The notes beneath the pieces are model-generated. The model was not told where the DNA came from, ran no database searches, and saw only the letters and a list, made by a program, of their open reading frames with translations. The position numbers were made by a program, and so were the translations under genes. Below, in pieces: positions 625 through 23,832 of a stretch of 60,391 bases of DNA. Positions within the stretch are counted from its first letter, which is position 1. Each line of letters opens with the position of its first letter. The stretch is from Laspinema palackyanum D2c (lineage in GTDB: Bacteria > Cyanobacteriota > Cyanobacteriia > Cyanobacteriales > Laspinemataceae): positions 1 to 60,391 of the forward strand of contig NZ_JAMXFD010000032.1 in assembly GCF_025370875.1 (NCBI RefSeq). The letters run 5' to 3'.

Positions 625-2370
625 ATGTCGAAACTCAATGTTGATCAAAAGTCCATATTTGACTTATTGTCGCACAAAAAATCTGACTTCCTCATCCCTG
701 ATTACCAAAGACCATATGCTTGGGATGATCAACAATGTCAAACTCTTTGGGATGACTTATTTTTATTTTCTTTTCCCAATAATAATTGTGATGAATTCAA
801 CCGTGACGAAGAAGAATATTTTCTTGGATCAATAGTTACATTTAAAAATGAAAATGGGAAGTCAGAGGTGATTGACGGGCAACAGCGACTTACTACACTA
901 TTATTAATCCTTCGTGCCTTTTATGACAAATTTTCAAATATGCAGGACATAAATTCTAGGCGTACTAGGGAACGAATTGAGAAGTGTATATGGAAAACTG
1001 ACACCTTTGGTAGCGCAGACAAATCACTATTAAAAATAGACTCCGAAGTAGCTACCGACAACGACAAAGATGAATTTCTTGACCTGCTAAGGACTGGCGA
1101 TATAAAGGCTGGCGCCAAGAGTCAATACGTTCAAAATTACAAATTCTTTCAAAATAAAATAGAAGATTTTTTACAAGGTTTTGCTAGTTATTTCCCATAT
1201 TTTCCTACTCGAATTTTAGACAACTGTATTCTTTTACCTATTGAGGCAGAGTCCCAAGATACGGCATTACGAATTTTTTCGACACTAAACGATCGGGGTC
1301 TTCCACTTTCAGATGCTGATATTTTTAAAGCCCAGTTTTATAAATACTTTAGCGACTCCAATAAGAAAGATGAATTTATCAAGGACTGGAAAGAACTTGA
1401 GGAATTATCAAATACAGTGTTTCATCCAATAAGTGGTACACCAATGGATGATCTATTTTCTCGATATATGTATTTTCTGCGAGCAAAAGAAGGAAATAAA
1501 AGTTCAACTACGGAATCACTGCGAAAGTTTTATGAACGGAATAAATATCAATACTTAAAGAAAGAAAATACTATAGGTGATCTAAAAACACTGGCTATTT
1601 TTTGGAAAAGTATCATCCTTCAAGACAAAGGACGATTCTCGGATAGCATTCTTAAAAAACTGTTTGTACTACATTTTGCTCCAAATGGAATGTGGCAAAA
1701 TATTACATCTGTCTATTTTTTGCAAAACAAGAACAGCGAAGGTCTTCTGGAGGAAAGCGCTTTTGGCACTTTCCTTGATCGAATTACGGCTTTTATATTT
1801 GCATACGCAATAACTAATCCTGGAGTAAATGCCCTTCGTACTCCTGTGTACGATGAAATGATTACCATTGTTAATGGGTCAATCGCTACTTTTTCAAAGT
1901 ATAAGTTTAATGAGACTCAATCTCGCGCTCAATTTGAAAATTATACATTTACGAACAAAAGGTCAATTACACGCTCCATGATAACTTGGTATGCCCATTC
2001 TTTCCCAGAACAAAAACTCCTTGATTTGAAGCAAGGATTCGATATCGAACATATCTATTCGAGAAAGCGACAAGATATCGAAGGTGGTTTAAAAAACGAG
2101 AGCAATCTTGAATCCTTGGGGAATAAAATACTTCTGGAAGAAAGTATAAATATAAGAGCATCTGATTACCGATTTGAAGATAAGAAGAAAATATATAGTG
2201 GTATACAGCGTCGTGGGAAATGTAAAGACCCAAGCCAAATTCATGAAATTAACAATATTATTGAGTTGAAGGAGTTTGACGAAAACCAGGTGATTACAAG
2301 AAGTAAAAATATTCATGATCGTTTTTTTCAATTTTTAAATGAACAAGACCTGATTGAGGTTCAGCAGTGA
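625..2370 (+). CDS. DUF262/DUF1524 (GmrSD-like) protein
   Basis: This 581-residue protein has the DUF262 signature near its N-terminus: an IPDYQRPYAW block at about residues 24-33 and the DGQQRLTTL ParB/Srx-like motif at 84-92. The C-terminus carries a DUF1524-type HNH-like block with DIEHI at 473-477. Both halves of the GmrS/GmrD arrangement are thus in one chain, as in single-chain type IV restriction enzymes that use a nucleotide to cut modified (for example glucosylated) phage DNA. An anti-phage role is inferred; DUF262 proteins are diverse and many are uncharacterised. The start follows an AGAGGA ribosome site at 614-619. The gene is clearly more AT-rich than its neighbours and stands alone, which suggests horizontal transfer. 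Flanking repeats and attC-like heptamers support this. Confidence 0.85.
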   Translation: MSKLNVDQKSIFDLLSHKKSDFLIPDYQRPYAWDDQQCQTLWDDLFLFSFPNNNCDEFNRDEEEYFLGSIVTFKNENGKSEVIDGQQRLTTLLLILRAFYDKFSNMQDINSRRTRERIEKCIWKTDTFGSADKSLLKIDSEVATDNDKDEFLDLLRTGDIKAGAKSQYVQNYKFFQNKIEDFLQGFASYFPYFPTRILDNCILLPIEAESQDTALRIFSTLNDRGLPLSDADIFKAQFYKYFSDSNKKDEFIKDWKELEELSNTVFHPISGTPMDDLFSRYMYFLRAKEGNKSSTTESLRKFYERNKYQYLKKENTIGDLKTLAIFWKSIILQDKGRFSDSILKKLFVLHFAPNGMWQNITSVYFLQNKNSEGLLEESAFGTFLDRITAFIFAYAITNPGVNALRTPVYDEMITIVNGSIATFSKYKFNETQSRAQFENYTFTNKRSITRSMITWYAHSFPEQKLLDLKQGFDIEHIYSRKRQDIEGGLKNESNLESLGNKILLEESINIRASDYRFEDKKKIYSGIQRRGKCKDPSQIHEINNIIELKEFDENQVITRSKNIHDRFFQFLNEQDLIEVQQ

Positions 2371-9633: not shown

Positions 9634-10170
9634 ATGCAACAGCGTGGTGTCACGGTGTGGTTTACAGGTTTGAGCGGTGCAGGCAAGACTACCATTAGCC
9701 AGGGAGTGGAGAAAGAACTGCGATCGCAAGGATATCAACTCGAAATTCTCGATGGAGATATCGTTCGCCAAAACCTGACGAAGGGACTGGGTTTTAGTAA
9801 AGAAGACCGCGACGAAAATATTCGCCGCATCGGTTTTGTCTCTCATTTATTAACCCGCAATGGGGTGATTGTTTTGGTGTCAGCGATCGCCCCTTACCGT
9901 GAAATCCGCGAAGAAGTCCGCCATCGGATTGGTGACTTCGTTCAGGTTTATGTAAATGCGCCTCTGGAAGTCTGCGAAGAACGCGATGTCAAGGGGCTTT
10001 ACAAAAAAGCTCGCGCTGGGGAAATTAAAAACTTTACCGGCATTGATGACCCTTATGAGGCTCCCCTCAATCCGGATATTGTATGTTCTACTAAAGACGA
10101 AACCGAGGCAGAAAGTATCGCCAAGGTGCTGCAATATCTCAAAGATAAGGGGTATATCACCACCGCTTAA
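9634..10170 (+). CDS. cysC: Adenylylsulfate (APS) kinase
   Basis: CysC phosphorylates APS to PAPS with ATP in the sulfate assimilation pathway. The 178-residue protein has the Walker A GLSGAGKT at 12-19 and the EILDGDIVRQNLTKGLGFS substrate block. It also has the FVSHLLTRNGVIVLVSAI stretch and the KKARAGEIKNFTGIDDPYE lid. Length and order are standard for a stand-alone APS kinase with no sulfurylase fusion. It lies 143 bases after the Usp-like gene on the same strand, so it may share transcription with the SLC13 permease or have its own promoter in that gap. Confidence 0.95.
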   Translation: MQQRGVTVWFTGLSGAGKTTISQGVEKELRSQGYQLEILDGDIVRQNLTKGLGFSKEDRDENIRRIGFVSHLLTRNGVIVLVSAIAPYREIREEVRHRIGDFVQVYVNAPLEVCEERDVKGLYKKARAGEIKNFTGIDDPYEAPLNPDIVCSTKDETEAESIAKVLQYLKDKGYITTA

Positions 10171-10817: not shown

Positions 10818-11282
10818 ATGTTAATGTTACTGTTTTATGTCGGGCCTGATCGGTATGCCCTAGGCTGTTCCCAGGTCGTAGAAGTCATTCCCCTGGTGGA
10901 GTTGAGAAAACTATACCACGCCCCAGAATATATGGCGGGATTGTTTAATTACCGAGGGAGCATTGTTCCAGTTCTCGATTTATGTCATTTGATTCAAGGG
11001 AGTTCTTCTCGCTCTTGCTTAAGCACTCGGATTATTCTGGTTAAGTATCAGCAAAACCACCAGAATGAGCAACTGATTGGATTAATGGCCGAGCGAGTGA
11101 CTGATACGGTGAATGTCCCGGAATCTCAATTTAAGGGAGAGGGGATTCACTTAGAAAATGCAGCCTATTTGGGCAAAATCATCATGGACGAAGAAAAAGG
11201 GACAATCCAGCAGTTGCGCCTAGATTATTTACTTTCACAGCAAGCACAAGCATTCCTATCGCCAATTGGGGAGACTGAATAG
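10818..11282 (+). CDS. cheW: CheW-like coupling protein (WspB-like)
   Basis: The 154-residue single CheW domain begins MLMLLFYVGPDRYALG and contains the IPLVELRKLYHAPEYMAGLFNYRG core that docks receptors to the CheA kinase. It is the first gene of a Wsp-ordered cluster and matches WspB in position and N-terminal style. CheR begins two bases after its stop. The start is uncertain between ATGs at 10818 and 10824; neither has a strong ribosome site. It would act in the cytoplasm at the receptor array. Confidence 0.88.
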   Translation: MLMLLFYVGPDRYALGCSQVVEVIPLVELRKLYHAPEYMAGLFNYRGSIVPVLDLCHLIQGSSSRSCLSTRIILVKYQQNHQNEQLIGLMAERVTDTVNVPESQFKGEGIHLENAAYLGKIIMDEEKGTIQQLRLDYLLSQQAQAFLSPIGETE

Positions 11283-11284
11283 CA

Positions 11285-12610
11285 ATGGTTTGGGACGAAA
11301 TTGAGCGAAAACTCAGCAATACGAGCGGATTAGACCCGAAAACCCTAGGCTCTCAGGCGATCGTCAAAGCCGTTCGAGACCGGATGCAGGTTTGTGGGGT
11401 TGAGAATGTAACCACCTATCTCGATGTATGGCTCTGTTCTCCCCAGGAATTACAGGCCCTAATTGAGGAGACCGTTGTGCCTGAAACCTGGTTTTTTCGG
11501 GAGCCTGAATCTTTTGAGTTTCTCCGGCGTTACGTCCTGTTCGAGTGGTTACCCCACCACCGAGAAGGTATTCTCCGCCTGTTAAGCGTTCCCTGCTCAA
11601 CGGGAGAAGAACCTTATTCCCTCGCGATGATGCTCCTAGATGCAGGGTTACCTCCGAATAGGTTTGCGATTGACGCCGTTGATATCAGTCAAAAAGCCCA
11701 AGCTAAAGCTAAACAAGGTCTCTATCGAGAGCATTCCTTTCGGAGTAAAAATTTAGGCTTTCGCCACCGCTATTTTGAGGAAACCGCGCCGGGATATCAA
11801 CTTTCAGCGGCAGTTAAGGAGACCGTAAATTTTATCCAGGGCAATCTTTTAGAACCCCTTTTTTTGTATGGAAAACCGCTTTATGATATTATATTTTTTC
11901 GGAATTTATTAATTTATCTGGAACCTGCGGCTCGCGATCGCGCCTTGCAAGTGTTAAATCGGTTATTATCTCCCTCTGGACTGCTGTTTGTTGGCTCTGC
12001 TGAAGCCGGACCGATGATTGAGCAGCGATTCATCTCCCTGCGCCATTCCATGACTTTTGCCTACCGCAAGCGACAAAAAAGCGATGGAACCGCTCGCTTC
12101 TATGTCCCAGGGGATGAGCCTGAATACTCTTCCTTCCAGGTTCCCCCGCCAACTCCCCCGCGCTCTGACTCTCCTGGATTTCCACCCCAATCCTCACTCC
12201 CTTCTTCTGCGGAACTCCCCCCAGAAGCCAGAAGAGAACATCCTCCAAGCTCCGAGGCGATCGCCGCGAACACCCCTTCCTCACCCCAGCCAATCCCTGA
12301 GTCCCTTCTGATGCAGGCTAGACATCTAGCGGATGTCGGACAATTGTATGAAGCCGCCCAGCTATGCGAAACTTACCTCAGTCAACATCGCACCGATGCC
12401 AATGCCTATGTCTTATTAGGTGAAATCCGCCAAGGCGCAGGACAGTCTGAGCGTGCCGAACAATGTTGGGAAAAAGCCGTTTACCTCCAACCCTATCACT
12501 ATGAAGCCTTGACACATCTGCTCTTGCTCAAAGAATCTCAAGGAGATCTCACCCATGCCAGTACCCTTAGACAGCGGATTCAAAGACTGCTCAACTCTCA
12601 GGAGAAATAG
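11285..12610 (+). CDS. cheR: CheR-type methyltransferase with TPR tail (WspC-like)
   Basis: This 441-residue protein uses S-adenosylmethionine to methylate receptor glutamates. The N-terminal CheR helical domain is followed by the SAM motif PCSTGEEPYS (near residue 103) and IIFFRNLLIYL, the usual FCRNVLIYF motif with cysteine replaced by phenylalanine. A Pro/Ser-rich linker (about 275-340) leads to a C-terminal TPR region (about 345-440). The CheR-TPR layout is the one seen in WspC and FrzF. It is translationally close to the CheW gene upstream and the MCP gene 69 bases downstream. Confidence 0.92.
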   Translation: MVWDEIERKLSNTSGLDPKTLGSQAIVKAVRDRMQVCGVENVTTYLDVWLCSPQELQALIEETVVPETWFFREPESFEFLRRYVLFEWLPHHREGILRLLSVPCSTGEEPYSLAMMLLDAGLPPNRFAIDAVDISQKAQAKAKQGLYREHSFRSKNLGFRHRYFEETAPGYQLSAAVKETVNFIQGNLLEPLFLYGKPLYDIIFFRNLLIYLEPAARDRALQVLNRLLSPSGLLFVGSAEAGPMIEQRFISLRHSMTFAYRKRQKSDGTARFYVPGDEPEYSSFQVPPPTPPRSDSPGFPPQSSLPSSAELPPEARREHPPSSEAIAANTPSSPQPIPESLLMQARHLADVGQLYEAAQLCETYLSQHRTDANAYVLLGEIRQGAGQSERAEQCWEKAVYLQPYHYEALTHLLLLKESQGDLTHASTLRQRIQRLLNSQEK

Positions 12611-12679
12611 CACACTCTCATTCCGGGGTAAAGATTAATAGACCCATCCAAACCCTTTCAACACCAAAGGAAAAACAGA

Positions 12680-14431
12680 ATGTTTCGGAATCTCTCTTTG
12701 CAAGCTCGAATGCTGGCGGCTTTTATATTTATGGGCTTAATTGTATTAATTGTAGCCCTAGTCGGTTGGGGGGGAAATCATCGGTTAAGTAATCGCCTCG
12801 ACACCATTACAGGTAACGCCATGCCGAGCGCGATCGCCTTATGGAAAATCAAAGAAGGTCAGACCCAAATTCAGGCCGCAGAACGATTACTCCTCAATCC
12901 CCGCAGTACCAGCGATCGCCGAACTATTGCCAAACAAAGAATCAATCGAGCATGGCAACAAATTAATCAAGGATTTGCTGAATATAGCAATATCCTCAAT
13001 AAAGACCCAGAAGAAGACCGCCTTTATAACCAGTTTATGCAGGCATGGAATCAGTGGAAAGGACTCCATGAAAACTTCCTTCAACTCAATCAAGAGTTTG
13101 AAGCATACGGGATTTTCCAGCCCTGGGAAACTCAAATCCAGTTATGGGAAGCCCGACAAAGTAATAGCCCCCAAATGGCAACGGCTAGAGCCGCCGCTGA
13201 GGTTCTTGAAAGCATGAATGCCCAACGCGCTCGCATCAATATTCCGGCCTATCAAGCGGCAGAAGAAACCCTGCAAGAGGTCGTAGCATACAATCAAGAG
13301 GTGGCTGCCCAAGTGGTCACACAGGCCGAACAAGATGTGGCTCAAAGTAGTTTTTGGGTCATGCTGGGAATGCTCCTCGGTCCCTTGACTGCCATCATTT
13401 TTGGCCTGTATTTTAGCAACACGATCGCCAAACCCCTCGGGGCCAAAATTGTCGGGGTGGTTCGAGTCGCGGAAAAGATTTCCTCCGGAGACTTGACCAC
13501 CCAGGTGAAGGTGACGGAAACTCAGGATGAAATTGGCCGGTTAACGGTTGCTTTTGCTCAGATGACCCAAAAGTTAAATTCCTTAATTCGTCAGGTCCAA
13601 CATTCGGGAATTCAAATCACCAGTTCCACTACAGAAATTGCAGCATCGGGCAAACAATTAGAAGCGACGGTGACAGAACAAGTGGCTTCGACGAACCAAG
13701 TCGTCGCCACGGCTAAAGAAATTGCGGCCACCTCTGGCGAATTAGTTAAAACAATGGATCAAGTCGGGGAACTCGCCGGACAAACGGCAATTGCTGCCGG
13801 AACCGGGCAACAAGAAATTGTTCGCATGGAAACGACGATGCGCCAATTAGCTAATGCTACCGCTTCGATTTCTGCCAAATTGGGGGTGATTAGCGAAAAA
13901 GCAAATAACATTAATAGTGTGGTGACTACCATTACCAAAGTGGCGGATCAGACTAATTTGCTCTCTCTCAATGCGGCGATTGAAGCTGAAAAAGCGGGGG
14001 AATATGGCACAGGTTTTGCGGTGGTTGCCCGGGAAATTCGGCGACTGGCGGACCAAACGGCGATCGCCACGTTGGATATTGAAAGTATGGTCAAAGATAT
14101 GCAATCGGCTGTTTCCACTGGGGTGATGGAAATGGATAAATTCACCACAGAAGTCAGCCGAGGGGTTGAGGATGTTCGCACCATCAGCGGCCAAATTGGT
14201 AAGATTATTGAGCGGGTTCAAAGTCTGACTCCCCGATTTGATGCGGTGACTAAAGGTATGGAGGATCAATCGGAAGGGGCTCAACAAATTAGTGATGCAA
14301 TGGTTCAACTGAGTGAAGCCTCCCGACAAACGGCCCAATCTCTGCGGGATACCAATCGGGCGATCGAGCAATTAAATGAAGCCGCTCAAGGATTGCAACG
14401 AGAAATCTCGTTTTTCAAGGTGCAAATCTAA
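12680..14431 (+). CDS. Methyl-accepting chemoreceptor (WspA-like)
   Basis: The 583-residue receptor has a first membrane segment at about 8-29 and a four-helix-type periplasmic region to about 215. The second membrane segment is at about 222-245, followed by HAMP and the cytoplasmic signalling domain. The hairpin tip contains NLLSLNAAIEAEKAGEYGTG and the downstream ALRRLADQT-like IRRLADQT block. These read very much like WspA, the surface-sensing receptor. It lies between cheR and the Cys-rich CheW. What it senses cannot be told from the sequence. The 437 bases that follow contain the second MITE-like element, so the operon may be interrupted there. Confidence 0.92.
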   Translation: MFRNLSLQARMLAAFIFMGLIVLIVALVGWGGNHRLSNRLDTITGNAMPSAIALWKIKEGQTQIQAAERLLLNPRSTSDRRTIAKQRINRAWQQINQGFAEYSNILNKDPEEDRLYNQFMQAWNQWKGLHENFLQLNQEFEAYGIFQPWETQIQLWEARQSNSPQMATARAAAEVLESMNAQRARINIPAYQAAEETLQEVVAYNQEVAAQVVTQAEQDVAQSSFWVMLGMLLGPLTAIIFGLYFSNTIAKPLGAKIVGVVRVAEKISSGDLTTQVKVTETQDEIGRLTVAFAQMTQKLNSLIRQVQHSGIQITSSTTEIAASGKQLEATVTEQVASTNQVVATAKEIAATSGELVKTMDQVGELAGQTAIAAGTGQQEIVRMETTMRQLANATASISAKLGVISEKANNINSVVTTITKVADQTNLLSLNAAIEAEKAGEYGTGFAVVAREIRRLADQTAIATLDIESMVKDMQSAVSTGVMEMDKFTTEVSRGVEDVRTISGQIGKIIERVQSLTPRFDAVTKGMEDQSEGAQQISDAMVQLSEASRQTAQSLRDTNRAIEQLNEAAQGLQREISFFKVQI

Positions 14432-14883
14432 GGGGCGATCGGCGCTATTTCTGCTCCCCTCCCTGACCCCAGGAGGTTGTTGAGGCCGAACCCCAACTCT
14501 CACTCACACAGAGGGGAGAGCGATGGAAACCCAACACCTGTCAAGTTGACGGAGTAAGGTTGACCGCATTTTTGTAAAAACCCGAAAGTCTGGGTATTGC
14601 TGATGATAAAACCCGGGTTTTTGGAGAAAATTATTGCCAATTCTTAACCCAGAAAGGGCAATGAAACCCGGTTTCTCGTCCCGGGGTCATCCGACTCCTT
14701 ATGATACTCCATACGGTATTTAAAGGTCTATAAAAACGGATTGTAGAGGCGCAATGCGCAGGCCCCTAAAAATACCGCTTGACGCGGCTCGTTTTTATAG
14801 ACTTATCAGTACCGTATGGAGTATGACCGAGCATCTGACTATTACTCCTGTGCAAAATTATCCCCCTCATGGAGAGTTGCTCT
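14432..14883. other. Gap inside the chemosensory cluster
   Basis: Non-coding. It holds AAACCCG/CGGGTTT inverted motifs (14578-14680), of which 14618-14630 with its following T-run could act as a weak terminator. It also holds the second MITE-like element. Confidence 0.6.
14704..14824 (-). mobile_element. MITE-like palindromic element, copy 2
   Basis: The 121-bp element has perfect 18-bp-scale ends: ATACTCCATACGGTA at the left and TACCGTATGGAGTAT at the right. Its reverse complement aligns with copy 1 through most of its length, including the TCTATAAAAACGAGCCGCGT and CTACAATCCGTTTTTATA blocks. Confidence 0.75.
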
Positions 14884-15606
14884 ATGACTGAAAAGTGCTG
14901 GAACCAAATCGGAATAGAGGGCGATCGCTCTTGTCCCGAACTCAATACAGTCATCCATTGCCGAAACTGCCCTGTTTATACCAGTGCCGGTCGCAGTTTA
15001 TTGGAACGGGACGCCCCAGAAAACTACCGGGCTGAATGGACGGATTTACTCGCTCAAACCCCCTCAACCCTAACGAGCGATCGCCAGACCCTTCCCCAAC
15101 TACAACGAGCGACAGCGGAATTCTTTGACCCACTTTCTCTGCTGATCTTTCGCCTCGGGGTAGAATGGTTAGCCCTGGCCGCCTCTACCTTCCAAGAAAT
15201 CACTCAGCCTTGCACCATTCATACCTTACCCCACCGAACTAACGAAATTCTCCTGGGCTTAGTGAATATTCGAGGGGAACTTTTGCCCTGCATTTCTCTG
15301 AGAAATCTCCTAGGGTTGGAACCCCCAGGCACTTATCCGAAACCGTTAAACGGTCCAGGGAATTTGACGCGGACGGTTTATTCCCGTATGGTCGTTGTGA
15401 ATATTCAAGGAGATATCTGGGTCTTTTCCGTAGATGAAATTGAGGGAATTCACCGATGCGATCGCCATTTGATTGAAGAAGTCCCAGCGGTGGTTTCCAA
15501 AGCCCCGATTACTTATACTCAATACATTGTAAACTGGCAAGACAAAAAAGTAAATTACCTGGATGAAGAATTTGTATTTTCTACTCTGAAACGGAGGATT
15601 TTGTGA
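14884..15606 (+). CDS. cheW: CheW-like protein with Cys-rich N-terminus (WspD-like)
   Basis: The protein has a short Cys-rich head, CWNQIGIEGDRSCPE followed by HCRNCPVY, and then one CheW domain (about residues 85-235). The same head is a hallmark of WspD, so this is the second coupling protein of the cluster. The four cysteines could bind a metal or form disulfides; the role is not known to me. I choose the ATG at 14884 because a GGAG lies about 10 bases upstream. The ATG at 14869 would add five residues. Its stop overlaps the cheA start by four bases, so the two are translationally coupled. Confidence 0.88.
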   Translation: MTEKCWNQIGIEGDRSCPELNTVIHCRNCPVYTSAGRSLLERDAPENYRAEWTDLLAQTPSTLTSDRQTLPQLQRATAEFFDPLSLLIFRLGVEWLALAASTFQEITQPCTIHTLPHRTNEILLGLVNIRGELLPCISLRNLLGLEPPGTYPKPLNGPGNLTRTVYSRMVVVNIQGDIWVFSVDEIEGIHRCDRHLIEEVPAVVSKAPITYTQYIVNWQDKKVNYLDEEFVFSTLKRRIL

Positions 15607-17957
15607 AACACCATGAACAAGATTTAAGTCAATTATCCATGCTCGATTTATTCGGGATGGAGGTTGAAACCCAATCGGCTCTATTAAATGAAAATTTATT
15701 AAGCCTAGAAAATCACAGTCAGTCCGGCCAAGAACTCGAAGCGTTAATGCGGGGTGCTCATTCGATTAAAGGGGCGGCCCGGATTGTTCAAATTGAGGAA
15801 GCGGTCCAGATTGCTCATCGGATGGAGGACTATTTTGTAGCCGCCAAGGAAGGTCGAATCGTGGTTTCAGAAAACCATATTGATGTGCTACTTTCCGCCG
15901 TGGACCTGCTCTTGAGTATGAGCAAGGTGAGGGAACCGGAGTTAAAAGGCTGGATGCAGCACCATCAGCCGGAAATTGACCTGATCGCCAGCCAAATCCA
16001 GGAGATTGCCTCCCCAGCTCCCCTAGCTCCCCCAGCTCCCCCAGCTCCCCCAGAATTGGGCGCTCACGAGCCGGAACCCCCATCCCCACCTGAACCGCAG
16101 GATAACCCCGTTGACCCCCCCCCTTCCCCGCTCCTGGTTCCTTTTCCAGACACTGCACCGCCTCCAACGGTGAGGGCGCAATCCCCTTCCTCCTCTGGTT
16201 CCAGTGGCGATCGCGTCGTCCGCTTAAGTGCAGACAACTTAAATCGATTAATGGGTCTAGCCGGGGAGTCCCTGATTGAAGCCAATTGGTTACAACCCTT
16301 TGCCGATTCCCTACTCAAACTCAAAAAACACCAGACCGAATTATCAAAAACCCTAGAAAAATTAGAAAGTTCATTGAGCGACCCTCAAAGGAGTCAATTG
16401 GCAAAAACTCACATAGAAAGCGCTCAAATTCATCAAAAAGAATGCTTAGAAATTCTCACGAATCGCATCAACGAACTCGAACTTTTTTCCCGTCGTTTTG
16501 CTAACCTTTCCGACCGTCTCTATCGGGAAGTAATTGACAGTCACATGAGACCTTTTGCTGAAGGGATTGCGGGGTTTCCGCGCATGATGCGAGACTTAGC
16601 TAAACAACTAGGGAAGTCCGTAAATTTTGAAATCATGGGCAAATCTACCAAGGTTGACCGCGATATTTTAGAGAAGCTAGAAGCTCCCCTGACTCAAATT
16701 TTGCGAAATGCGATCGCCCACGGGATCGAATCACCCCGGGAACGGATTGAGAAAGGAAAACCCCCGGAAGGAACTGTGCGCCTCGAAGCGGTTCATCGCG
16801 GTGGAATGCTGTTGATTACAATTTCTGATGATGGTCGAGGCATCAATTTAGCCGAGGTCCGGCAACAGGTGATTGCTAATCAATTGGTCAATCCTGAGTT
16901 TGCCCATCAGCTCACCGATACGGAACTGATGGAATTTTTATTTTTACCCAGCTTTTCCACGGTTACGGAGGTGACTGAAATTTCTGGACGCGGTGTCGGG
17001 TTAGATATTGCCAAGGGCATGATGCAAGAAGTCGGGGGGTTATTGCGTGCTCAGTCTGAACTGGGAAAAGGGACCCGTTTTCATCTGCAATTGCCCTTAA
17101 CGCTCTCGGTGATTCGCACCCTGTTAGTGGAAATTTCGGCAGAACCCTACGGGGTTCCTCTCGCCCGAATTGATCGGATTGTTCAGATTAAGCGGGGGGA
17201 ACTCTTTGTTGTGGAAAACCGGCAATATTTTAGCCTTAATGGTCAAAATGTTAGTCTGGTGAGTGCTCATCAAGTTCTGGAATTAGAAAAGAGTGAACTG
17301 AATGAGGAGTTGTTATCGGTGATTGTGATGAGCGATCGCAGCAACTATTATGGCTTAGTGGTCGATCGCTTCCTCGGTGAGCGAGATTTGGTGGTCCGCC
17401 CCCTAGACTCCCGTCTGGGCAAGGTCCGAGATATTAGTGCGGCAGCATTAATGGAAGATGGGTCTCCCGTTTTAATTATTGATGTGGAAGATTTAGTGCG
17501 ATCGCTGGATCTGCTTCTCAGTAGTGGCCGGTTAAGTCAAATTACCCAGGATACCCAAGTCAAAGAGTCCAAACATCATAAAAAAATTCTGGTGGTTGAT
17601 GATTCGATTACGGTCCGAGAAATGGAGCGTAAATTGTTGCAAAATAAAGGCTATAAAGTCGATATCGCGGTCAATGGTATTGATGCTTGGAATGCCGCCA
17701 GAACCGGGGAATATGACCTAATTATTACCGATGTTGATATGCCCAGAATGAATGGCATTGAGCTGGTTAACCACCTGAAAAGCCATGCAAAATTGAAGTC
17801 TACTCCGGTGATTATTGTGTCCTACAAGGACCGGGAAGAAGACCGGCTTTTAGGGTTAGAAGCGGGGGCAAATTATTACTTGACAAAAAGTAGTTTTCAT
17901 GATGATACCTTTTTAAATGCGGTCATGGATATGATCGGGACGGCGGATGAGAGTTGA
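15603..17957 (+). CDS. cheA: Hybrid CheA kinase with C-terminal receiver (WspE-like)
   Basis: Domains in order: HPt with the phosphoacceptor His53 in GAHSIKGAAR; a Pro-rich linker (about 138-195); dimerisation helices; an HATPase domain with an N box (ILRNAIAHGIE), G1 (DDGRGI) and G2 (GRGVGLDIAKG); a CheW-like domain; and a receiver with Asp710 in TDVDMP. The receiver ends with the SYKDREEDRLLGLEAGANYYLTK stretch seen in WspE. The 784 residues fit that family. It should take receptor input and pass phosphate to its own receiver, to CheB and to the downstream REC protein. The start is GTG at 15603. The stop is TGA, after which the frame stays open for 66 more codons. Confidence 0.93.
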   Translation: MKHHEQDLSQLSMLDLFGMEVETQSALLNENLLSLENHSQSGQELEALMRGAHSIKGAARIVQIEEAVQIAHRMEDYFVAAKEGRIVVSENHIDVLLSAVDLLLSMSKVREPELKGWMQHHQPEIDLIASQIQEIASPAPLAPPAPPAPPELGAHEPEPPSPPEPQDNPVDPPPSPLLVPFPDTAPPPTVRAQSPSSSGSSGDRVVRLSADNLNRLMGLAGESLIEANWLQPFADSLLKLKKHQTELSKTLEKLESSLSDPQRSQLAKTHIESAQIHQKECLEILTNRINELELFSRRFANLSDRLYREVIDSHMRPFAEGIAGFPRMMRDLAKQLGKSVNFEIMGKSTKVDRDILEKLEAPLTQILRNAIAHGIESPRERIEKGKPPEGTVRLEAVHRGGMLLITISDDGRGINLAEVRQQVIANQLVNPEFAHQLTDTELMEFLFLPSFSTVTEVTEISGRGVGLDIAKGMMQEVGGLLRAQSELGKGTRFHLQLPLTLSVIRTLLVEISAEPYGVPLARIDRIVQIKRGELFVVENRQYFSLNGQNVSLVSAHQVLELEKSELNEELLSVIVMSDRSNYYGLVVDRFLGERDLVVRPLDSRLGKVRDISAAALMEDGSPVLIIDVEDLVRSLDLLLSSGRLSQITQDTQVKESKHHKKILVVDDSITVREMERKLLQNKGYKVDIAVNGIDAWNAARTGEYDLIITDVDMPRMNGIELVNHLKSHAKLKSTPVIIVSYKDREEDRLLGLEAGANYYLTKSSFHDDTFLNAVMDMIGTADES

Positions 17958-18287
17958 TCGCTCCGGGATCGAGGCGATCGCTGGGATCAGCGCACTGGAG
18001 GACTGAATCTCGGAGCAGCATTGCCGGAAAACCTCTTTCCTGTCGCCCAGACAGGGGGCTTTGTGGATGACTGTAGTACCACCATGCCAACATCTACCGG
18101 AGAAACTATCGGCAATTTAGTCACGCTTGTTGAGTCCGAGGTGAGCGGATTATTTTAAATTGACCCTAAAAATCATGCTTAGCCTGAGTTATTTATTAAA
18201 AAAATAATTTAAGGAAAAAGAGGGGAATTTAGATATAATAGGAGAAATTTCAAAATTTGTTCATTACAATACCTTAAACTCTCTTAT
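17958..18287. other. Gap between cheA and cheB
   Basis: The first 201 bases are an open continuation of the cheA frame, ending in TAA at 18156-18158. The last part is AT-rich, with TATAAT at about 18233-18238 that could serve cheB as a -10 box. There is no other gene. Confidence 0.5.
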
Positions 18288-19298
18288 ATGAAAATTGCTA
18301 TTGTTAATGATATGCTGTTGGCAATAGAAGCCTTACGGCGCGTCTTAACATCAGTGCCGGATTATGAACTGCTTTGGGTGGCCCGGAATGGGGCGGAAGC
18401 CCTGGATAAATGTACCTCGGTGCGACCGGATCTCATTTTAATGGATGTCTTCATGCCGGTGATGGATGGGGTAGAGGCAACTCGCCAAATTATGGGTCGT
18501 TGTCCCTGTGCCATATTGCTGGTCACCTCTAGTATTAACACTCACTTACCTAAAGTATTTGAAGCCCTCGGATATGGCGCGCTAGATGTAGTGATTACTC
18601 CAATTCTGGGACACTACGGCAATGCCGAAGGGGGAGAAACCCTCCTGGAAAAAATTAGGACGGTTCATAAATTGCTGGGTAAACCCCTCAGCAAAAAGCC
18701 CAGAACTCCGATTCCTGCCAAGTGGTCTTATCCGACTCAACCCTATCCCTCCCTGGTGGCGATCGGCGCTTCTACGGGAGGTCCCACGGCGATCTCCAAG
18801 ATTTTGTCTCAGTTACCCCAGGATTTTAGAATAGCCGTGGCGATCGTCCAGCATATCGATGTCCAGTTTTCCGCCAGTTTTGTCCAGTGGTTATCCCAGC
18901 AAACCCGCTTGAAAATCGATTTGGCTCAAGAGGGAATGACCCCGCAACCCGGTAAAATCATCGTCGCCGCAACCAACGATCATCTCCTCATGCGCCCCGA
19001 TCGCACCCTGGGCTATACTAAACATCCCCGGAGTAATCCCTATCGTCCCTCGGTGGATGTTTTTTTTACAAGTTTGGCTGAAAACTGGCCAGGGCAAGGA
19101 TTAGGGGTGTTGCTCACCGGCATGGGACGAGATGGAGCAATAGGATTAAGTCTCTTGCGATCGGCCGGTTGGCAAACGATCGCCCAAGATGCCAGCAGTT
19201 GTATCGTCTATGGAATGCCCAAAGCTGCGGTCGAATTGGGAGCAGTGCAAGAAAGTTTGACTCCCGAGGCGATCGGGCTAAAACTCCTGAGTCTCTAA
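18288..19298 (+). CDS. cheB: CheB-type methylesterase response regulator (WspF-like)
   Basis: An N-terminal receiver (Asp53 in LMDVFMP) is joined to a CheB esterase/deamidase domain with the catalytic triad Ser162 (GASTGG), His189 (VQHID) and Asp282 (GMGRDG). It would remove methyl groups added by the CheR protein. The receiver begins MKIAIVNDML, so one of the usual paired N-terminal acidic residues is Asn7. The same VND opening is found in WspF-type proteins, so it is probably a subfamily feature. The 336 residues are standard. A terminator-like hairpin follows at 19390-19441, separating this gene from the kinase downstream. Confidence 0.92.
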   Translation: MKIAIVNDMLLAIEALRRVLTSVPDYELLWVARNGAEALDKCTSVRPDLILMDVFMPVMDGVEATRQIMGRCPCAILLVTSSINTHLPKVFEALGYGALDVVITPILGHYGNAEGGETLLEKIRTVHKLLGKPLSKKPRTPIPAKWSYPTQPYPSLVAIGASTGGPTAISKILSQLPQDFRIAVAIVQHIDVQFSASFVQWLSQQTRLKIDLAQEGMTPQPGKIIVAATNDHLLMRPDRTLGYTKHPRSNPYRPSVDVFFTSLAENWPGQGLGVLLTGMGRDGAIGLSLLRSAGWQTIAQDASSCIVYGMPKAAVELGAVQESLTPEAIGLKLLSL

Positions 19299-19992
19299 TC
19301 AGTCATCCAGTTTCTGAGTTAGGTTTGGGAGTGATTTACCCTCGGGCCTGGATACGGTTTTGCAATCTCCCGGACAAGAATCCGGGTTGCACTGGAAACA
19401 GCCACTTATACCAAATTCGGCTATTTCCAGTGGTTTTTTTGTCTTAAACTCCAAGAAGAAAGGCGTCCGGTTGGGAGTCTGAACCCTTGAGGGGTGCTGA
19501 GGTTGGGCCAACCGACAAGTACCCCCTGGGCTCGGAGAAAGGGGTAACATTTTGTACAGAACCCCGGTTGGTTTTCCCTGTACTTTACCCCTGGATCAGA
19601 TTGCTCAACAGGGGAATAGAGGGAATGGACTGGAAACTTTTTCAGCTGTGCCCTGTCCACCGAATAAAAGTTACCTCTGGACTCCATTCTATGATAAGTT
19701 TACAAAATTCAGTAGTCATTGTTACTACTGTTCTCTCATCAGCGCAACATCTACAAAAGCTGAACCCCTCTGTTCTTCAGTTCTCCAGATTGAGAGTTCA
19801 AAGGGAAACTGGCGTTGATATTTTTAAGCCTAAAGATAGATGACATAGGATAGTGGAGTATAAAAAATGAAAAGAAGGGGAATGACAATAAATGACAATA
19901 GAGTGCCTCTACGACTCCCGGGTGATCGTCCATTCCATGAAAATTTAACCTAACCCCATCAATGGGTGAGCCATTTTATTTTAGGAGCCTAA
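19299..19992. other. Gap between cheB and REC-kinase gene
   Basis: It holds a terminator behind cheB (19390-19441). A 118-codon frame at 19487-19843 and its shadows lack a recognisable domain, a ribosome site or biased codon use, so I do not call a gene. The last 130 bases are AT-rich and probably carry the promoter of the next gene. Confidence 0.5.
19390..19441 (+). terminator. Rho-independent terminator after cheB
   Basis: The stem CACTGGAAACAGCC (19390-19403) pairs with GGCTATTTCCAGTG (19419-19432) with one mismatch, followed by a run of T residues. Confidence 0.7.
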
Positions 19993-21549
19993 ATGCAATC
20001 AAGGGTCACGAGTGAAGAATTAATCAAAGTGAATCACGCGATCGCTTTACTTTCCAACCCTAAATTTCCAGTCCGATTCCGGGAAACAGCAATGAGTAGA
20101 GAACTTTCAGACCAACCTGTATCTATTTTATTAATAGACGATCAGCCGATTGTCGGTGAAGCCATTAGGCGGATGCTGGCAACGGAAAAAGATATTAAAT
20201 TTTGTTATTGTACCGACCCGGATCAAGCCATTCAACTCGCCACTCAAATTCAGCCCACGGTAATTTTACAGGATTTAGTGATGGGGGAGATTGATGGGTT
20301 GATGCTCCTGCGCTTCTTTAAAGCTAATCCAGGGACTCGCAATATTCCCATCGTGGTCCTCTCCACAAAGGAAGAACCCCAAAAAAAAGCCCAAGCCTTT
20401 GCTTCAGGGGCCAATGATTACTTAATTAAAATCCCGGACAAAATTGAGCTAGTTGCTCGACTGCGTTACCACTCTAATGCTTATCATAATTTATGCAAAG
20501 GTTATGAATTCGAGCGAACCCAACAGTACAATAAAGAGTTAGAATTGCGGGTCCAAGAGCGCACCCAAGAACTAACCGAAGCTCTAGATAATCTCAAACA
20601 AACCCAAGCGCAATTAGTTCAAAGTGAAAAAATGTCCGGTCTAGGGCAACTGGTGGCGGGAATTGCCCATGAAATCAACAACCCTATCAGTTTTATTTCG
20701 GGGAATTTGATTCATTTTATTGAATATGCCGAAGGATTATTAACCTTAGTGGAAATGTACGAACAAACCTTTCCCGAGCTACCGATTACGATTCAAGATT
20801 TTAGGGAATCCCTAGACTTAGAATTTATTCGAGAAGACTTGCCTCGCTTAATCTCTTCCATCCGAGGAGGATCCGATCGCATTCGGGAAATTGTAGTAAA
20901 TTTGCGTAATTTTTCACGAATGGATGAATCGGACCGAAAACCGGCAGATATCCATGAAGGGCTTGAAAGCACCCTGGTGATGCTACAACATCGCCTGGAG
21001 GAGAATCAGATTGAGCTAAGCAAGGAGTATGGAGAGTTACCCGCGATCGATTGTTATCCGGGACAACTCAATCAGGTGTTTATCAATATGTTGTCCAATG
21101 CGATCGATGCCGTGAGCGATCGCCAGCAACGCTCTCCCAGAAAAGCCATTTCCGATAACGGTGAGACGGTTCCCGGGAAAATCAGCATTAAAACTCAACT
21201 TCAAGGCGGGGTAGTGACGATTCGGATTACAGATAATGGGATAGGAATTCCCCCCGCACTTCAAACCCAAATTTTTAACCCCTTTTTCACCACCAAGGAA
21301 GTGGGACAAGGAACGGGATTGGGATTGGCAATCAGCTATGAAATTATTGTCAAAAAACATCACGGACGCATTCGATGTGAGTCGCACCCCAATCGCGGCA
21401 CCGAGTTTACCATTGAAATTCCCTTCGAGTCTAACCAACCGAGTAATATTCGCCAACTGCCCCGCAGTCATAAAGAAAGTGCTGTCTCCTCAGTCTCTCA
21501 ACCGCCTCCAACAGAAATCCCTTCGCTACAGTGGCTTGAAGTCGGTTAA
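19993..21549 (+). CDS. WspR-like receiver fused to a histidine kinase
   Basis: The 518-residue protein starts with a receiver (about 50-170; IDDQPIVGEAIRRML, phosphosite Asp94 in LQDLVMGEIDG, then VVLSTKEEPQ and GANDYLIKIPDKIELVARLRY in separate blocks). This receiver reads like the one in WspR. In WspR a GGDEF domain follows. Here there is a coiled coil (about 175-212), a dimerisation domain with His226 in GIAHEINNP, and an HATPase domain with N box NMLSNAID, G1 DNGIGIPP and G2 GTGLGLAIS. The ATG at 19993 follows AGGAG at ideal distance. I infer that the CheA-type kinase upstream phosphorylates this receiver and so controls the kinase half. Its own partner response regulator is not in the window. 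Confidence 0.88.
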   Translation: MQSRVTSEELIKVNHAIALLSNPKFPVRFRETAMSRELSDQPVSILLIDDQPIVGEAIRRMLATEKDIKFCYCTDPDQAIQLATQIQPTVILQDLVMGEIDGLMLLRFFKANPGTRNIPIVVLSTKEEPQKKAQAFASGANDYLIKIPDKIELVARLRYHSNAYHNLCKGYEFERTQQYNKELELRVQERTQELTEALDNLKQTQAQLVQSEKMSGLGQLVAGIAHEINNPISFISGNLIHFIEYAEGLLTLVEMYEQTFPELPITIQDFRESLDLEFIREDLPRLISSIRGGSDRIREIVVNLRNFSRMDESDRKPADIHEGLESTLVMLQHRLEENQIELSKEYGELPAIDCYPGQLNQVFINMLSNAIDAVSDRQQRSPRKAISDNGETVPGKISIKTQLQGGVVTIRITDNGIGIPPALQTQIFNPFFTTKEVGQGTGLGLAISYEIIVKKHHGRIRCESHPNRGTEFTIEIPFESNQPSNIRQLPRSHKESAVSSVSQPPPTEIPSLQWLEVG

Positions 21550-21963: not shown

Positions 21964-23832
21964 TTGCCCATGCTTTCAGAAAGCAGATCAGACAGAAAAA
22001 CAAAACCCGTCGTGGTTCCCACTCGTAGAACCGGCGCTTATGCGTTGATGGATAGTCTCAAGCGTCACGGAGTCAAACATATTTTTGGCTATCCAGGAGG
22101 GGCGATTTTACCGATTTATGATGAACTGTATCGGTTTGAAGCCGCAGGGGATGTCCAGCATATTTTAGTTCGCCATGAACAAGGAGCCTCTCATGCGGCA
22201 GATGGCTATGCCCGCGCCACAGGCAAGGTGGGGGTTTGCTTTGGGACATCCGGCCCGGGGGCAACGAATTTAGTCACGGGGATTGCCACGGCCCACATGG
22301 ATTCGATTCCAATGGTGATTATTACCGGACAGGTACCCCGGGCGGCCATCGGCACGGATGCCTTCCAGGAAACGGATATTTATGGAATTACCTTACCGAT
22401 TGTCAAGCATTCTTATGTGGTGCGCGACCCTCGGGATATGGCGCGGATTATCGCCGAAGGGTTTCATATTGCCAGTACCGGCAGACCCGGTCCGGTGTTG
22501 ATTGATATCCCTAAAGATGTGGGTTTAGAAGAGTTTGACTATGTGCCCGTGGAACCGGGGAGTATTAAATTACCGGGATATCGACCGACGGTGAAAGGGA
22601 ATCCCCGGCAAATTAATCAGGCGATCGAGTTAATTCGCCAAGCCAAAAAACCCTTACTGTATGTCGGTGGAGGCGCGATCGCCGCCAGTGCTCATCACGA
22701 AATTAAAGAACTCGCCGAACATTTTCAGATTCCAGTCACCACCACCCTAATGGGCATAGGAGCCTTTGAGGAACATCATCCTTTGTCCTTGGGAATGTTA
22801 GGAATGCATGGCACCGCCTACGCAAATTTTGCCGTAAGCGAATGCGATTTGCTGATTGCCGTCGGTGCTCGTTTTGACGATCGCGTTACCGGCAAGCTGG
22901 ATGAGTTTGCCGCCCGCGCCAAAGTCATTCATATCGATATCGACCCCGCAGAGGTGGGTAAAAACCGGGGACCCGAAGTTCCCATCGTCGGAGACGTGCA
23001 GCAAGTGCTCATGGATCTGTTGCGTCGCCTGCGGGAAACCGGGGATATTACCGATGCCAATCAAACGAAAGAATGGTTAGGACGAATTGAGCGCTGGCGG
23101 GAGGATTATCCCTTGTTAGTGCCTCATCCAGAAACCGCCCTCTCTCCCCAAGAGGTGATCGTAGAAGTGGGACGGCAAGCACCAGATGCCTACTACACCA
23201 CCGATGTGGGACAGCATCAAATGTGGGCCGCCCAGTTCCTGAAAAATGGCCCCCGTCGATGGATTTCCAGCGCCGGATTAGGCACAATGGGGTTTGGAGT
23301 CCCAGCGGCGATGGGTTCCCAAGTAGCACTACCGGATCACCAAACCATCTGTATCAGTGGCGATGCCAGCTTCCAGATGAACCTGCAAGAACTGGGGACG
23401 ATCGCCCAGTATGGCATTAAAGTCAAAATTGTCATTATCAATAATGGCTGGCAAGGGATGGTCCGTCAGTGGCAAGAAACCTTCTATGGGGAACGCTACT
23501 CCTCGTCCAACATGGAGATTGGGATGCCGGATATTCCGTTACTCTGTCAGGCTTATGGCATGAAAGGGAAGGTGGTATCAACCCGGGACGAACTCCAGGA
23601 TGCGATCGCTGAAATGCTGGCTCATGATGGACCCTTTGTCCTCGATGTCCATGTTACCCGCAACGAAAACTGCTATCCAATGGTAGCCCCGGGTAAGAGT
23701 AATGCTCAAATGATAGGTTTACCCGAACTCAAGAAAAAAGACTTACAGGTTGAGTTAGTTTATTGCAGCAATTGTGGGGCAAAAAATGCCTCCACCAATC
23801 ACTTCTGCCCTGAATGCGGGACGAAGCTCTAG
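21964..23832 (+). CDS. ilvB: Acetolactate synthase large subunit with zinc-ribbon tail
   Basis: IlvB joins two pyruvates, or pyruvate and 2-ketobutyrate, in the first common step of branched-chain amino acid synthesis, using thiamine diphosphate and FAD. Visible features are [14 protein letters not shown], the catalytic glutamate in [24 protein letters not shown], and the thiamine-binding [12 protein letters not shown]...NN block. At 622 residues it is longer than usual. The last 25 residues form a CxxC-x10-CxxC zinc ribbon (Cys601, 604, 615, 618; CPECG at the end), after a complete synthase domain. The regulatory subunit gene (ilvN) is not adjacent. The ATG at 21964 could be replaced by later starts; residues 1-20 are not conserved in style. 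Confidence 0.95.

Follow-up and report, generated by a model that had tools for sequence, protein, structure and literature searches.

Where does the signal of a Wsp-type chemosensory cluster go when its last gene encodes a histidine kinase? Wsp is the model surface-to-cyclic di-GMP (c-di-GMP) switch, and a cluster of this type that ends in a kinase gene is found at positions 10,818 to 21,549 of the stretch analyzed here (the window; 60,391 nucleotides, contig NZ_JAMXFD010000032.1 of assembly GCF_025370875.1), which comes from the 7.03-Mb genome, assembled in 81 contigs, of the cyanobacterium Laspinema palackyanum D2c. The best explanation, which we consider quite probable as a whole, is a Laspinema-type Wsp-like system of the "alternative cellular functions" (ACF) class, in which the output would be a receiver-controlled histidine kinase whose kinase part derives from the cyanobacterial kinase pool, separately from the WspH kinase of Burkholderia.

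A first-pass annotation of the window had proposed a seven-gene cluster with the domain content and gene order of Wsp. The domain content was confirmed by the open reading frames, all on the plus strand, and by Pfam (Table 1): a methyl-accepting chemotaxis protein (MCP), two CheW proteins, a CheR with a C-terminal tetratricopeptide repeat (TPR)-like part, a CheA fused to a receiver domain (REC), and a CheB form one cluster that is followed by the output gene. The chassis of the Pseudomonas Wsp system has the same domain content, which was also seen in the Proteobacterial relatives. The first CheW shared 29 to 42% identity with its counterpart in the Proteobacterial Wsp clusters examined, the CheA kinase core was 43 to 51% identical to the Proteobacterial WspE proteins compared, and the MCP was 37 to 40% identical, over almost its full length, to those of loci L140 and L137; the TPR matches at residues 360 to 430 of the CheR-TPR protein were slightly below the Pfam cutoffs. 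The second CheW carries a cysteine-rich head (CWNxIGxxGDxSCP...HCRNCPVY) common to Proteobacterial WspD, which is a feature noted in this analysis and not taken from a published definition. It was recognizable in seven of eight Proteobacterial WspD frames, the eighth (L144) having been read in the wrong frame, and a loose cysteine pattern was present in 58 of the 90 WspD-like frames from the collected loci. The output gene places a multidomain response regulator inside a CheR-TPR cluster, as in the ACF class (PMC3447774). The proposed gene order did not stand: the window reads B-C-A-D-E-F-H, with the receptor gene third, whereas the Proteobacterial order, read in Azoarcus pAZKH and Mesorhizobium pMLb, is A-B-C-D-E-F-R, with the receptor gene first; the output gene is last in both plasmid clusters and in the window. 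The order B-C-A-D-E-F has been published for the cyanobacterium Phormidesmis priestleyi BC1401 (PMC4971617), in which, unlike in the window, a class III adenylate cyclase comes next, an output that we found in 12 of 31 cyanobacterial loci.

The output protein has 518 residues and carries HisKA and HATPase_c domains in place of the GGDEF domain of WspR. Its receiver had been described as reading like that of WspR, and both the structure comparison and the tree agree with this. Against solved structures, the receiver scored 171 (3bre) and 165 bits with WspR and 61 bits with the next protein, PleD; it was 63% identical to WspR (3bre) and 54 to 70% identical to the 37 other collected Wsp-output receivers. 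These 37 scored 155 to 191 bits (155 to 291 bits with the window receiver included, n = 38), and seven non-Wsp receivers scored at most 65 bits; the outgroup of this set includes four other REC-kinase loci that gave a reading frame, out of 10 named. The tree of 45 receivers placed the window receiver inside the WspR clade and united the 22 cyanobacterial Wsp receivers in one clade with support of 100/99 (99/99 after removal of two long rows), outside of which the receivers of Burkholderia WspH and those of WspR fell. The choice of query mattered: with the whole REC-kinase, the signal was drowned by generic cyanobacterial kinases, and the receiver alone separated cleanly. Within positions 1 to 40,000 of the window, the receiver model (E of 1e-6) matched only CheA, CheB, and the output gene. 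Asp94, the predicted phosphoacceptor, is invariant across 21 aligned receivers, and K146 is also found. The histidine kinase is complete, as claimed: His226 is invariant in 13 aligned kinase rows, and the N (residues 365 to 372), G1 (414), F (429), and G2 (438) motifs are all there. By its sequence, the locus combines a complete adaptation chassis with a receiver of the WspR clade, its phosphorylation residues included, and with a kinase that lacks none of its motifs.

The kinase gene is kept next to the cluster in relatives. All eight genomes of the genus contain a window-type REC-kinase, as judged by receiver score and frame length, and the order APS kinase-B-C-A-D-E-F-H (APS, adenosine 5'-phosphosulfate) is retained in six of six testable congeners (L270-L273, L275, and L276; in a seventh, L274, the contig ends just beyond the kinase). 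Laspinema sp. D2d (L147) has the same genes as the window at 78 to 96% identity. Outside the genus, the REC-kinase gene lies 3' of CheB in five close homologues (L049-L053), with additional genes between CheA and CheB in L051. CheB followed by a REC-kinase was also found in L121, L147, L152, L189, and L200; a member of the window's own family, G229, has a cyclase in place of the kinase (L123). In a survey of 386 cyanobacterial genomes, Wsp-type CheA (threshold E of 1e-120) was detected in 28 genomes (31 loci) and WspR-type receivers in 23 genomes (27 receivers), and all 23 were among the 28 (hypergeometric P of 1.6e-32, ignoring shared ancestry). These counts of loci and receivers are minima, with two CheA and 10 receiver candidates scored per genome; scoring of all receiver candidates in 15 genomes agreed with the survey. 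The receivers belong to nine REC-kinases, 12 cyclases, four phosphatases, and two hybrid kinases, and none of the 27 in these 386 genomes is fused to GGDEF; another search retrieved a WspR-type GGDEF protein from a cyanobacterium, Pseudanabaena "Roaring Creek" (L151). The outputs assigned to the 31 CheA loci, eight of which are REC-kinases, are listed in Table 1. The window receiver does not stand beside this chassis by chance, judging from its score of 171 versus 61 bits and from the detection of such receivers only alongside Wsp-type CheA (23 of 23 genomes).

Table 1. Features of the window and outputs assigned to the 31 cyanobacterial CheA loci
Feature	Position in window, or loci	Strand	Evidence and remarks
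CheW-like coupling protein (WspB-like)	10818-11282	+	Pfam CheW, 81 bits
CheR methyltransferase with C-terminal TPR-like part (WspC-like)	11285-12610	+	Pfam CheR, 136 bits
MCP receptor (WspA-like)	12680-14431	+	Pfam 4HB_MCP_1 (four-helix-bundle sensor), HAMP, MCPsignal
CheW with cysteine-rich head (WspD-like)	14869-15606	+	Pfam CheW
CheA-REC hybrid (WspE-like)	15603-17957	+	GTG start; Hpt, HATPase, CheW, REC
CheB methylesterase (WspF-like)	18288-19298	+	Pfam REC and CheB; NCBIfam NF009206 above cutoff
Output gene, WspR-type receiver fused to histidine kinase	19993-21549	+	Pfam REC, HisKA, HATPase_c
WspR-type receiver domain, residues 45-157	20125-20463	+	Pfam, structure comparison, tree
Codon of predicted phosphoacceptor Asp94	20272-20274	+	QDLVM motif starts at residue 93
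Predicted continuous helix, residues 150-259	20440-20769	+	AlphaFold2, pLDDT 61-89 in blocks of ten
Codon of predicted phosphoryl-accepting His226	20668-20670	+	H-box AHEINNP (in IAHEINNP)
HATPase_c catalytic domain, residues 358-479	21064-21429	+	N, G1, F, and G2 motifs
APS kinase (before the cluster)	9634-10170
Acetolactate-synthase-like protein (after the cluster)	21964-23832		C-terminal zinc ribbon (Pfam Zn_Ribbon_1)
GmrSD-type restriction endonuclease	625-2370		Pfam GmrSD_N, GmrSD_C
REC-kinase output, 8 of 31 loci	Window, L049-L053, L121, G328		G328 pairing presumed, CheA (L117) and CheB-kinase (L277) on separate contigs; L050-L053 and L277 assigned without Pfam (blast or homemade models)
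REC-class III cyclase output, 12 of 31 loci	L108-L110, L112-L115, L119, L120, L122, L123, G213		G213, L111 and L281 on separate contigs; L109, L113, and L281 assigned without Pfam (blast or homemade models)
REC-SpoIIE phosphatase output, 4 of 31 loci	L116, G105, G131, G143		In G105, G131, and G143, phosphatase gene adjoins CheB, away from CheA, and was assigned without Pfam (blast or homemade models); in G131, a single receiver for two CheA loci was assigned to one of them
Hybrid kinase output, 1 of 31 loci	L127
No output found, 6 of 31 loci	L118, L124, L125, L126, L131, L132

A kinase output as such is already known. The first-pass annotation knew of no described system of this kind, yet WspH, CheS3, and a survey of CheR-TPR clusters had been published; of its overall interpretation, the type of receiver, the neighborhood, and the lack of a detected GGDEF protein with a WspR-type receiver held up, and the novelty of the kind and the gene order did not. 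WspH (WspHRR), a REC-kinase that replaces WspR, has been published for Burkholderia (PMC8552884, PMC4324302), and such H-systems amount to 206 of 794 in a Wsp survey (PMC8552884); we located them on replicons of B. cenocepacia, B. arboris, and B. multivorans (L144-L146). Like the window, these loci join a Wsp chassis to a histidine kinase that carries a WspR-type receiver and no GGDEF, but there are a number of differences. (i) The gene is found at the 5' end of the cluster, whereas that of the window is 3' of CheB. (ii) WspH has about 363 residues and an SHDMRSPQ H-box 18 residues after RYHS, whereas the AHEINNP box of the window protein follows 65 residues after it. (iii) Neither the kind of kinase nor the branch of the chassis is shared, the two being far apart in the chassis tree and mildly so in the receiver tree.

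Independent gain of the kinase in cyanobacteria and Burkholderia is most likely, because the two kinases align poorly (104 residues of the ATPase part, 26% identity, E of 0.005) and a forced clade of cyanobacterial and Burkholderia H-systems was rejected in approximately unbiased (AU) tests, strongly on CheA (p-AU of 6e-88, quick tree) and mildly on receivers (0.029) and kinases (0.037). Many other cyanobacterial kinases share about 50% identity with the window kinase, and a single cyanobacterial H clade is compatible with receivers (p-AU of 0.54) and CheA (0.50). The CheA tree, a quick tree of hand-picked rows, nests the chassis of WspH among the GGDEF systems of Burkholderiaceae and requires 11 changes of the output label. 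It comprises 88 loci chosen by hand, 87 of which were placed (L186 gave no match), and leaves out L125, L132, L135, L193, L226, and 11 GGDEF loci despite their CheA; nine rows labeled "none found" are outside the 11 changes, and for five of these (L111, L117, L128, L129, and L130) the receiver gene is elsewhere in the genome. PMC8552884 limits Wsp to the beta- and gammaproteobacteria and its kinase form to Burkholderia; clusters entered that survey only if they were syntenic with two query clusters and at least 30% identical to them, a requirement that may account for its narrower range. The loci surveyed here, together with the alphaproteobacterial plasmid clusters, argue against both restrictions. 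In the available text of the literature searched, mostly nonsubscription, we found no description of the cyanobacterial 3' kinase form, of its separate origin, of the tie between receiver clade and chassis across outputs, or of the set of three receivers in the genus presented below. What appears new is the cyanobacterial 3' form and its probable independent origin, not the kind of output.

The most likely flow of the signal, as far as it can be read from domains and residues, would be from CheA to the receiver, the kinase, and a partner. The receptor would change the activity of CheA, phosphorylated CheA would pass its phosphate to Asp94, the resulting change in the receiver would travel through a continuous helix and switch the autophosphorylation of His226, and phosphorylated His226 would then phosphorylate an unlinked response regulator. 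Two precedents favor this route. In Rhodospirillum centenum, phosphotransfer from CheA3 to CheS3 has been shown to control the kinase (PMC3868531), and in the Che3 system (CheA3-CheS3-CheY3), as in the flow proposed here, a CheA phosphorylates the receiver of a second kinase that controls a response regulator; in contrast, REC1 of CheS3 switches the kinase off, and the likeness to the window is by description only. In the Leptospira kinase LvrB, phosphorylation of the receiver induces a coiled coil and releases the catalytic domain (PMC13269768). LvrB shares with the window protein an N-terminal receiver as input, a signal helix, and DHp (dimerization and histidine phosphotransfer) and CA (catalytic and ATP-binding) domains, with no other sensor domain found in the latter; it differs in being fed by the hybrid kinase LvrA instead of CheA (PMC13269768), and the best sequence match of the window receiver is WspR, not LvrB. 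The AlphaFold2 model predicts one helix that runs from alpha5 of the receiver via the linker into the dimerization helix, and the top six solved structures retrieved by Foldseek for the whole output model were LvrB chains, followed by WspR. By analogy, we lean slightly toward a kinase that is switched on by its receiver, as in LvrB, over one that is switched off, as in CheS3. The 2012 survey of CheR-TPR clusters found that about 40% of their response regulators contain a kinase module, considered the receiver likely to modulate it, and listed kinases, phosphatases, and mononucleotidyl cyclases among the outputs (PMC3447774). The signal helix has been reported to prefer multiples of seven (PMC13269768); such a heptad rule was considered for the linker, and the distances from RYHS to the histidine (55 in seven proteins, 65 in two, and 66 in two, L189 being outside the measured set) show none.

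A number of observations weigh against the preferred explanation. (i) The AlphaFold2 model is of middling quality, with a mean predicted local distance difference test (pLDDT) score of 72.8 and a predicted template modeling (pTM) score of 0.39. (ii) The matches to LvrB have TM-scores below 0.4, and that to WspR is also low over the whole chain. (iii) The linker varies in length among the cyanobacterial kinases (55 versus 65 or 66). (iv) A single cyanobacterial kinase clade received a p-AU of only 0.084 on kinases. (v) Five of the 28 CheA genomes (G118, G193, G255, G262, and G278) have no WspR-type receiver among the candidates scored, so the chassis can do without one. (vi) The kinase gene starts 694 bp past CheB, which makes a separate transcript possible, and a pattern scan of this gap gave three promoter-like sites (one on the plus strand), versus 1.0 ± 1.0 in shuffled sequences, and one terminator-like site, so that cotranscription of the two genes is uncertain. 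(vii) The genome contains 31 GGDEF matches, which leaves c-di-GMP as a possible end point.

The last of these leads to the first of three alternatives, in which the kinase would be a relay, compatible with the preferred explanation up to the final step, and phosphorylated His226 would act on the receiver of a GGDEF protein. Receivers do lie in or near some of the GGDEF matches (L090, L094, L102, and L106), but their scores with the Wsp receiver model are only 39 to 66 bits, the latter value being the maximum for the 20 of 31 GGDEF matches whose loci were examined. When all candidates of the genome were scored, only three receivers exceeded 200 bits, the next reaching 79, and none of the three is fused to GGDEF; a REC-GGDEF protein with a WspR-type receiver, which could have been the real target, was not found in the 81-contig assembly. 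In addition, H-system mutants of B. cenocepacia showed no significant change in c-di-GMP (PMC8552884), and we regard a relay to c-di-GMP as unlikely.

The three high-scoring receivers all belong to kinases, namely, that of the window and, on contig C3 (L044, 7524-14637), a second REC-kinase and a convergently encoded hybrid (REC-PAS-PAS-HisKA-HATPase-REC-Hpt), the receivers of the latter two lying about 4 kb apart. This gives rise to a second alternative, in which the two C3 kinases would be the main outputs, with the window kinase serving chiefly as a sink for phosphate or as a phosphatase. Their receivers are 58 to 60% identical to that of the window, they are kept in eight (second REC-kinase) and seven (hybrid) of the eight genomes of the genus, and in another cyanobacterium the hybrid form directly adjoins CheB (L127). 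It is nevertheless the window kinase, not the C3 pair, that adjoins the chassis in the six testable congeners, and its catalytic motifs are complete; a role reduced to that of a sink thus appears improbable. A single CheA of the genome passed the E of 1e-120 (two candidates scored), and under the preferred explanation it probably addresses the second REC-kinase and the hybrid as well. The third alternative, in which the REC-kinase is merely a chance neighbor of the cluster, as the 694-bp gap and the many genomic kinases with similar catalytic domains might suggest, is hardly tenable in view of its WspR-clade receiver, the recurrence of this neighborhood beyond the genus in six other cyanobacterial genomes (L049-L053 and L121), and the co-occurrence of receiver and CheA.

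To place the output in a wider context, we inspected the best 80 of 557 relatives (L147-L226), the counts from which are no census. The outputs were SpoIIE/PP2C phosphatases (36), GGDEF (25), cyclases (11), REC-kinases (4), and hybrid kinases (4), and a CheA match was present within the fetched stretch for 61 of the 80. Record titles included Planctomycetota, Verrucomicrobia, Elusimicrobia, Deltaproteobacteria, Lentisphaerae, and Acidobacteria; many records are metagenome-assembled genomes, the contigs of which may be misbinned. Most outputs were assigned with homemade models, and the cyclases of L150, L168, L170, L172, L186, and L196 were called without Pfam at 64 to 93 bits. For 35 of the phosphatases, the model was built from two seeds and recovered 28 of 35 in the first round and all 35 after members had joined; SpoIIE was confirmed by Pfam in nine of the nine checked. 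The receiver-phosphatase fusions occur under many phylum names, and no paper joining a WspR receiver with SpoIIE in a chemosensory context was found in the literature searched. In L175, L201, L226, and L193, the last of which has a weak CheA match, the chemosensory genes nearest to the receiver-phosphatase gene are on the opposite strand. A broader proposition, for and against which we see an even balance, is that Wsp is a widespread general front end and the WspR-type receiver a plug for repeatedly swapped outputs (diguanylate cyclase, class III nucleotide cyclase, SpoIIE/PP2C phosphatase, histidine kinase, and hybrid phosphorelay kinase), that kinase outputs arose at least twice (Burkholderia and cyanobacteria), and that the single Laspinema WspE drives three kinases in a branched phosphorelay. 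Five kinds of output share one type of receiver, so that the chassis is more aptly regarded as an input module, and the response of a Wsp system must be read from its last gene. Since a conserved receiver is joined to changing outputs, these loci also form a natural swap set for how CheA selects its target.

In Burkholderia, CheB followed by a WspR-type REC-GGDEF gene was observed in L134 (9872-12017, the CheB matched in two pieces), L142 (9881-12017), and L143 (9873-11969); the fetched 22 kb gave no match to any further gene of the Wsp chassis. These loci share replicons with the WspH systems L144-L146. According to PMC8552884, H- and R-systems never occur together in one genome; such a pair on an H-system replicon would escape a synteny search, and it is a candidate for the missing cyclase. 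A convergent NarL-type regulator, assigned by Pfam for L051 and L053, was considered as partner of the kinase and rejected: it adjoins the kinase gene in three of 13 loci (L051, L053, and L277), and this neighborhood says little because a relative that is 77 to 100% identical is present in 20 of 20 genomes, in 12 of which no H gene was found. Finally, the acetolactate-synthase-like gene adjoins the kinase gene in those congener stretches that are long enough (L147, L270, L273, L274, and L276), and a gene of the same kind, 73% identical to that of the window, lies beside the two kinases on contig C3, which suggests that the two neighborhoods are an old segmental duplication.

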